A DNA stretch of 64,000 nucleotides from positions 1 through 64,000 of the forward strand of contig JAGRKV010000020.1 of assembly GCA_020442165.1 (NCBI GenBank). The letters are read 5' to 3'. Source of the DNA: Hyphomicrobiaceae bacterium (GTDB taxonomy: Bacteria > Pseudomonadota > Alphaproteobacteria > Rhizobiales > Hyphomicrobiaceae). Below the pieces are notes generated by a model, which was not told the DNA's origin, did not search any database, and was given only the letters and a program-made list of their open reading frames with translations. Numbering within the stretch: position 1 is the stretch's first letter; each line of letters opens with the position of its first letter. The translations under genes and the position numbers were made by a program. This document shows positions 37,357-39,124 of the stretch, piece after piece.

Positions 37357-37469
37357 CCGCAGGACGTGTACTCAAGCCCGTGAGGGAAAACAGCAACGGC
37401 GGCCCGCATGGGGCCGCCGTCGGATGTCCGGGGTGTCGGGAGGAGACACCGGAAGAAACTATTGCCGGA

Positions 37470-37559
37470 TCAGATGATGTCGATCTCGGCCGGCAGGTAG
37501 CTGGTGACTTCGAGGCCGACTTCCTGCTCGGTGACCTGCGGCTTTGTCCAGACCTTCAT
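37470..37559 (-). CDS. pqqA: PqqA, precursor peptide of pyrroloquinoline quinone (orphan copy)
   Basis: A 29-residue ORF on the minus strand reads MKVWTKPQVTEQEVGL then EVTSYLPAEIDII. It matches PqqA almost residue for residue, including Glu17 and Tyr21 in E-V-T-S-Y, the pair that the radical SAM enzyme PqqE crosslinks to form PQQ. GAGGAGA at 37566-37572 precedes the ATG at 37559 with 6-nt spacing. An in-frame ATG two codons earlier (37565) abuts the site. No pqqB, C, D or E is in the window. Below the gene (37395-37420) is a GC-rich hairpin that may end the transcript. PQQ is the cofactor of methanol and glucose dehydrogenases, so the organism is likely to own such enzymes. Confidence 0.93.
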   Translation of the reverse strand: MKVWTKPQVTEQEVGLEVTSYLPAEIDII

Positions 37560-37714
37560 GGGCATTCTCCTCATTGGTTATGCGTTCAGTTTCGGTCTCA
37601 TGTCCCGATTGGCTGCCCGCACAACGCCGCTGACAGCTTGGATCGTTAGGCAAACCTATCGAGAGAAATCGATCAGGTACAATCGATATATTTTGCACAA
37701 TTGATTAGATTTTC

Positions 37715-39124
37715 TTATTGCGTTCCCGGGCCGGTTCTCGCGCGCTCACGCACCATGAACATCAGCGCCATGCCGACCAGCAGGAAGGCGGTGATCGCGG
37801 ACATTCCAATCCGCTCCGAGCCGGTAGCGGCAGTCAGCGCTGCAATTGAGAACGGCGCGAAGAATGCCGTCACCTTGCCGGAGAAGGCAAAGAGCCCGAA
37901 GAATTGCGTGATCTTGTCGGGAGGCGCAAGCCGCGCCATCAGCGATCGGCTTGCAGCCTGCACCGGCGCCGCGACGATGCCGATCACCATCGCGAAGGCA
38001 AGGAAGACCTTCTCGCCAATCGAGGAGAAGGGCGATGAACCCGCAGCCTTCGGCGCCACCTCCATCGTGTAGAGCACATGGCTCTTGTCGATCGAGAGGA
38101 TGCCGAATGTGCCGGCAATCAGGATCAACAGGGCGACCATGATGACCCGGCGCGCACCGATCCGGTCGTCCAGCACGCCGCCGATCACTGCGCCGATAAG
38201 TCCGGTTAGCGTCAGCACGATGCCGAAGATGCCGAGTTCCAGCGCCTGCCAGCCGAACACCGCAGCGCCGTAGATGCCACCGAATGCGAAAATGGCGGTA
38301 AGGCCATCGATATAGAGCATGCGGGCAATGAGAAAGAACAGCATGTCGGGATGCTGTGGCAGGCCCTTGAGCGTATCCCAAAGTTCAGCCAGCGCGGTTC
38401 GGTGCGGGGCATCCGGTGGCGGCGGCTTGTGGGTGTCCGGAACGAACAGGAAAAACGGGATCATGAAGATCAAATACCAGGCGGCTGCAAACGGCCCGAC
38501 CAGCCGGTCGCCTTCGCGCACGGCGGTATCGAGTTTCAACAGCGGCTCAAGACCCAGAATCGTCTTGCCCGTTGCCGGGTTGGCGATAATGAGACCCGCC
38601 ATCAATGCCAGACTGATGAGGCCACCCGCATAGCCGACGGCCCAGCCTGTGCCCGATAGCCGCCCCAGCTGATGGGCGGGAACCAGCGTTGGCATGATGG
38701 CATTGGTGAAGACCTGGGTGAACTCTGCCGCGATCGTCGCCGCGATGAAGCCTGCGAGTATCAGGTAGATGGTCGCGGTGTCGGCGGCCGGCTTGCCCAG
38801 CCACAACACGGCAAGCCCCGCCATGAAGAGCAAAGAGAACAGCGCAATCCATGGCTTGCGCCGCCCGCGGCCATCGGCGAACGCGCCGAGCAATGGACTG
38901 CCGACTGCGATTATGACACCGGCAGCCGCCGCGGCAAATCCCCAGAGCTGCTGACCCCGCGCTGCATCTCCAACGACGACGGTCGCAAAGTAGGGAGCAA
39001 ACAGGAATGTCAGGACCAGCGTGTAGTAGGGCTGCGCTGCCCAGTCGAACATCACCCACGACACAAGCGCACGCATCGGCGCCCGGCCGGCGGTCCCGGC
39101 CTGCGCAACATTCGGTGAATGCAT
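37715..39124 (-). CDS. MFS transporter, UMF1/Atg22-like
   Basis: The 469-residue protein has about twelve hydrophobic segments. The opening LVSWVMFDWAAQPYYTLVLTFLFAPYF, with the motif FDWAxQPYxT, is diagnostic of the UMF1 family (related to yeast Atg22). The MFS loop between TM2 and TM3 appears as GAFADGRGRRKPW, and later LDDRIGARR is the second-half equivalent. Substrate unknown; fungal Atg22 exports amino acids from vacuoles. The gene lies 155 nt from pqqA and points the same way. Confidence 0.92.
   Translation of the reverse strand: MHSPNVAQAGTAGRAPMRALVSWVMFDWAAQPYYTLVLTFLFAPYFATVVVGDAARGQQLWGFAAAAAGVIIAVGSPLLGAFADGRGRRKPWIALFSLLFMAGLAVLWLGKPAADTATIYLILAGFIAATIAAEFTQVFTNAIMPTLVPAHQLGRLSGTGWAVGYAGGLISLALMAGLIIANPATGKTILGLEPLLKLDTAVREGDRLVGPFAAAWYLIFMIPFFLFVPDTHKPPPPDAPHRTALAELWDTLKGLPQHPDMLFFLIARMLYIDGLTAIFAFGGIYGAAVFGWQALELGIFGIVLTLTGLIGAVIGGVLDDRIGARRVIMVALLILIAGTFGILSIDKSHVLYTMEVAPKAAGSSPFSSIGEKVFLAFAMVIGIVAAPVQAASRSLMARLAPPDKITQFFGLFAFSGKVTAFFAPFSIAALTAATGSERIGMSAITAFLLVGMALMFMVRERARTGPGTQ

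Follow-up and report, generated by a model that had tools for sequence, protein, structure and literature searches.

Orphan pqqA genes have long been counted in methylotrophs, with their detachment and repetition left unexplained. Hyphomicrobium denitrificans FJNU-6 has five pqqA copies, distributed over pqqABCDE, pqqADE and solitary genes, and an unlinked pqqA is among the two highest-expressed copies (PMC9851590). The orphan pqqA genes of M. extorquens respond to the form of neodymium (PMC11317620), and PqqA supply is limiting in Methylovorus according to the work summarized there (cited in PMC11317620). Methylophilaceae carry 3-12 pqqA copies (PMC4109929). Here we describe an orphan pqqA gene in a 64-kb stretch of Hyphomicrobiaceae DNA, hereafter the window, together with the promoter element predicted upstream of it.

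The orphan gene and its promoter element

The gene is a genuine pqqA. The 29-residue product proposed in the first-pass annotation is recognized by the PqqA models of both Pfam (34.2 bits, cut-off 21.1) and NCBIfam (31 bits, cut-off 20), and the Glu-x3-Tyr pair that becomes PQQ is present as E17 and Y21 in EVTSY. The ribosome site that had been called good is indeed there (Table 1), and relatives keep AGGAG or something close to it ahead of their orphan pqqA genes. The claimed isolation from other pqq genes also held, as at 1e-8 the window gave no match to PqqB, PqqC, PqqD or PqqE. The rest of the 120-kb contig showed no match to PqqE or a PqqE-like radical SAM gene. The gene has a strong, G+C-rich terminator hairpin of its own, and hairpins with T-rich tails also lie 3' of the orthologous orphan genes. 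From the PqqA model matches, the lack of PqqBCDE matches in the window and the terminator, we consider the orphan real and most likely monocistronic. A local functional partner was considered and rejected, none of the neighbours (purH, a GNAT gene, an ATG22-type (UMF1-type) MFS gene and NAD-glutamate dehydrogenase) being PQQ-related. An Rfam search of pqqA and oxyR loci returned no known RNA at the loci searched.

Table 1. Features of the orphan pqqA locus (window coordinates)
Feature	Position	Strand	Basis
Orphan pqqA CDS, 29 aa, MKVWTKPQVTEQEVGLEVTSYLPAEIDII	37470..37559	(-)	Pfam PF08042, NCBIfam TIGR02107
RBS GAGGAG	37567..37572	(-)	sequence, 7 nt 5' of pqqA ATG
Intrinsic terminator, 12-pair stem, 10 G-C pairs, T-rich tail	37394..37422	(-)	
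51-bp OxyR-type operator/promoter element (candidate)	37673..37723	(-)	motif model scores
Palindrome ATAAG-AAAAT-CTAAT of the element	37718-37704	(-)	alignment
CGATTGT of the element	37685-37679	(-)	alignment
-35-like hexamer TTGTAC, within the element	37677..37682	(-)	aligned columns 27-32; inferred
-10-like hexamer TAGGTT, weak	37653..37658	(-)	aligned columns 51-56; inferred

Motif discovery was run on the regions upstream of pqqA at 44 orphan and 18 operon loci; the log-likelihood was 411, against about 104 for shuffles (here and below, single-base shuffles). The resulting 51-bp element, with the consensus ATMAG-N5-CTKAT-N18-CGATTKG followed by a TTA-rich end, is mostly found 100-150 bp 5' of orphan pqqA genes. 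Two boxes can be read in the alignment (columns -9 to 30): a clearly palindromic one with T-N11-A and, judged by eye, a second, imperfect one that follows about 22 bp on and overlaps the -35 region. OxyR is a LysR-type thiol sensor whose two binding sites, spaced by about 22 bp, lie just upstream of the -35 region and overlap it. The layout of the element may fit such a LysR-type activator, as far as the alignment goes. A scan for the sigma-70 consensus found no promoter at the window's pqqA. Transcription of this gene is predicted to start near 37646, and the resulting leader, about 87 nt, would exceed that of most relatives. The leading TA of the -10-like hexamer forms the most conserved columns of that region; the weakness of this hexamer in the window counts against the reading that we favour below.

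The element separates orphan from operon copies. When each gene was scored with models that excluded its own genus, the alignment itself having been made with all genera, 34 of the 44 orphans but only 1 of the 18 operon copies reached at least 12 bits (Fisher p 1.6e-7); about a fifth of the orphan genes are without the element. The window gene scored 27.1 bits, a value equalled by 0 of 500 shuffles, as against -18.1 bits for the operon pqqA of the same genome (contig C74). Three genomes of the family that had no part in training gave the element at 8 of 9 orphans and 0 of 3 operons, and neither of two pqqADE clusters, the second from a fourth fresh genome, carried it. Orphan pqqA genes of five other Rhizobiales families (f15, f32, f33, f34 and f41, the last of which we take from its peptide sequence to be Methylobacterium-like) were without it. 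With the full model, the pqqA site was the only match of at least 5 bits in the window, and the matches of at least 12 bits in 831 kb of loci were all pqqA upstream regions, duplicate records or palindromic reverses. Judged by these scores, the element is specific to the orphan pqqA genes of Hyphomicrobiaceae as against their operon copies, and it is apparently an unreported promoter type. Three to four pqqA genes stand in tandem at L063 (4833-5857) and L086 (4823-5573), and every gene of these arrays has an OxyR-type element to itself. The sole operon copy to reach 12 bits is the last of such a tandem in genome G016; the array there directly precedes pqqBCDE, and the operon thereby acquires the element.

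The same element at oxyR and catalase genes

Across 17 genomes, a pattern scan placed its best matches outside orphan pqqA next to a LysR-type gene, in genome after genome, and the reversed pattern gave 2 matches in all. Two further matches (G018 C36 and G033 C7) are katA promoters. The LysR-type neighbour has OxyR as its best PDB match and as its best NCBIfam model, with a score below the cut-off set for enteric OxyR, and it keeps both sensor cysteines (GHCLRDQA-x2-C). In the window's own genome the protein is encoded on contig C29 and has both redox cysteines, GHCLRDQALTYC; for its orthologues, OxyR ranks first in both NCBIfam and PDB. By these sequence criteria, the protein beside the element is OxyR.

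A model built only from the orphan pqqA sites of other genera placed the element divergently to oxyR, with 21-41 bits in 12 of 14 genomes and, in further genomes, with 29.7 bits (G016) and 14.6 bits (G025). The window's own genome scored 22.4 bits. The site was weak or missing in G027 (9.2 bits), in G019 (6.9 bits, where oxyR has an internal stop) and in G013 (none). With the same pqqA-trained model, katA was preceded by the element in 5 genomes (17-36 bits) and cytosolic katG in 3 (10-16 bits). Several katG genes score poorly, among them that of the window's genome (-4.4 bits), yet ATAAG-N5-TTTAT is visible before this gene. Conversely, a model whose training set was restricted to oxyR and katA sites from other genera gave the window pqqA 34.9 bits, first among all orphans and at the top of the window, where the next separate place scored -1.9 bits; a 0.9-bit match is the same site read backwards. 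This reverse test is supportive and not fully independent, since the oxyR and katA sites had been located with the pqqA-derived model. Altogether, as read from these sites, the orphan pqqA shares one putative operator with oxyR and the catalase genes within the clade.

These results bear on the plainest alternative, namely that the orphan merely adds gene dosage from a promoter that is constitutive or set by growth on methanol or lanthanides and not by peroxide. Several pqqA genes are common among heavy PQQ users (PMC4109929, PMC9851590, PMC11317620), and among relatives the number of pqqA copies tends to rise with that of PQQ dehydrogenases, although not uniformly. However, this account leaves aside that the element is orphan-specific, almost absent at operon copies and shared with oxyR and catalase genes, and that the pattern search gave 0 matches at PQQ-dehydrogenase genes. 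We consider it possible, if unlikely.

Another redox regulator could also bind the element. A T-N11-A box suits any LysR-type regulator, and in Agrobacterium tumefaciens LsrB binds the katG/oxyR intergenic region (PMC11975290). However, in Rhizobiales lsrB and trxB belong to one operon (PMC11975290), and 11 of 13 Hyphomicrobiaceae genomes, the window's included, had no LysR gene in the flanks of trxB (about 1.5 kb); the trxB loci are without the element, which instead adjoins oxyR in divergent orientation. LsrB is thus disfavoured by both the flanks and the loci of trxB, and a binder other than OxyR seems to us quite improbable.

Divergent from oxyR, we also observed at L156 and L157, and less clearly at L152 and L168, a stretch of about 130-150 nt that lies between the OxyR-type site and the next gene and ends in a strong hairpin with a T tail (GCGCCTCGGCCGAGCGCCGAAT..GGCCGGGGCGCTCTTT). 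Its placement is like that of E. coli OxyS, and no Rfam match was found for the stretch; it is a candidate for a peroxide-induced small RNA.

Other pqqA copies in the genome and the family

Searching the rest of the genome for pqqBCDE and further pqqA copies, as had been suggested, located a pqqABCDE operon on contig C74 and a pqqADE cluster on contig C76, so that the assembly (4.32 Mb, 89 contigs) holds three pqqA genes in all. The C74 operon is complete, with PqqB, C, D and E all above their NCBIfam cut-offs, and its PqqA is identical to that of the window at 29 of 29 residues, the coding DNA showing synonymous differences only. PQQ alcohol dehydrogenases are encoded in the genome. The third copy belongs to a divergent pqqA-pqqD-pqqE cluster with a divergent PqqA of its own, MKYLEPAVYVPPRSNTWVAPDYNDVRLGFEVTAYVYVR, and adjoins ubiU, ubiV, a UbiD-family gene and an SCP2-domain (UbiT-like) gene; PuuD-like, aminotransferase and PyrD-like genes accompany the cluster (L011, G000 contig C76, 1293-12444). 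The same arrangement in H. denitrificans was described as a possible anaerobic PQQ route (PMC12423496).

This second cluster is what could speak for the suggestion of the first-pass annotation that the orphan peptide may feed another radical SAM enzyme, and for the further reading that the product is then not PQQ. The only other PqqE, that of C76, is however paired with a divergent PqqA of its own, the orphan matches the operon peptide instead, and the window's contig has no PqqE-like gene, which makes the suggestion very improbable. In a comparison of 63 main-type PqqA copies (18 genomes of the family), those of the same genome differ on average at 0.76 of 25 residues, against 3.09 of 25 for copies from different genomes. 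Such near-identity within genomes is expected if all copies serve the same PqqD/PqqE.

The position of the gene is kept within the genus. The UMF1-type MFS gene adjoins the orphan pqqA, upstream, in all three other genomes, and the GNAT/purH side is also kept in one of these three congeners and in G027, a member of another genus and the only case of synteny outside the genus; near the MFS homologues of Hyphomicrobium and other genera, pqqA is absent. Elsewhere, orphan pqqA genes have unrelated neighbours, with recurrent sites that presumably include guaB/rlmE, polA and uup, names that we recognized from sequence. The exception is one locus (L068, G018 C65:60994-63685), where a periplasmic-type katG follows 334 bp downstream of an orphan pqqA and is co-directional with it. 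A chance reading frame was ruled out by the peptide identity, the synteny, the promoter element and the terminator. That the copy is a functionless, decaying relic or an annotation artefact, as its very short length and the multi-contig assembly might suggest, is hardly credible for a gene that keeps its place in four genomes of the genus, differs from the operon copy by synonymous changes only and has a conserved promoter element and terminator.

The operon copies have a conserved sequence of their own. About 40-60 bases before the start of operon pqqA we noted a nearly invariant CCCTCGGCGGGG (L010:7073-7084 for the C74 operon), which is also present upstream of operon pqqA at L042, L044, L046, L049, L053, L061, L077, L094, L095, L102, L186 and L193, with close variants in G020 and G024; orphan copies lack it. 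No Rfam match was found at the three operon loci searched, and we regard it as a candidate for a regulatory element in the pqq operon leader.

Proposed role and comparison with known systems

We propose, with a probability of about 0.72, that the window gene is an OxyR-activated monocistronic pqqA that feeds the ordinary PqqD/PqqE. The orphan would be transcribed from its own promoter as an extra copy, and its peptide would enter the usual PQQ pathway through the PqqD/PqqE, PqqB and PqqC of the C74 operon. Its promoter would be part of the hydrogen-peroxide regulon: oxidized OxyR, bound at two sites about 22 bp apart by the -35 region, would activate transcription, and peroxide would thus lead to more PqqA and in turn to more PQQ, the whole operon not being induced. 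The additional PQQ might replace damaged cofactor or scavenge oxidants. The binding of OxyR, the activation by peroxide, the rise in PQQ and its use or benefit are steps that we infer; the control site shared with oxyR and catalase genes suggests that PQQ supply may be tied to oxidative stress. The earlier idea that an extra pqqA may raise cofactor supply is supported by the identity of the peptide with that of the operon and by the published supply limitation and high orphan expression. The more informative feature is the control element, which the first-pass annotation had missed.

One could imagine a division of labour across Hyphomicrobiaceae, in which operon pqqA covers ordinary needs and the dispersed genes, as members of the OxyR regulon, provide PQQ on demand against oxidative stress; for this broader view we hold the odds to be about even. 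A peroxide-response promoter would give a reason for the detached copies, as a separate input that tunes only the consumed substrate of the pathway. If this is true, the OxyR regulon of this family extends to PQQ precursor supply, an antioxidant function of bacterial PQQ, long suggested, becomes testable, and the promoter may offer a handle for Hyphomicrobium PQQ production strains.

How does this compare with described systems? The window's genome has the same three pqqA classes as H. denitrificans FJNU-6, for which the accessible part of the account mentions neither a shared promoter nor peroxide control (PMC9851590), and its C76 layout agrees with the cluster put forward in H. denitrificans as an anaerobic PQQ route (PMC12423496). 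The pqqA2 and pqqA3 genes of Methylorubrum extorquens AM1 are likewise orphans, with expression unlike that of the operon (PMC11317620); the orphan upstream regions of f41, the presumably Methylobacterium-like family, are without the element. Methylovorus sp. MP688 and Methylophilaceae, which are Betaproteobacteria and are likened to the window's gene by description and not by sequence, have many pqqA genes, usually with a single pqqBCDE set (Ge et al. 2015, cited in PMC11317620; PMC4109929), and these copies respond differently to the environment (PMC11317620; PMC4109929). On the regulatory side, the OxyR regulon of A. tumefaciens likewise has an oxyR-divergent site (oxyR-katG), catalase sites and two sensor cysteines, and pqq genes are unmentioned in that paper (PMC11975290); no OxyR-pqqA link was found in the open-access literature searched. 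Since dispersed extra pqqA genes have already been published for Hyphomicrobium, Methylorubrum and Methylophilaceae, the orphan as such is not new; it is its control that looks like the new part.
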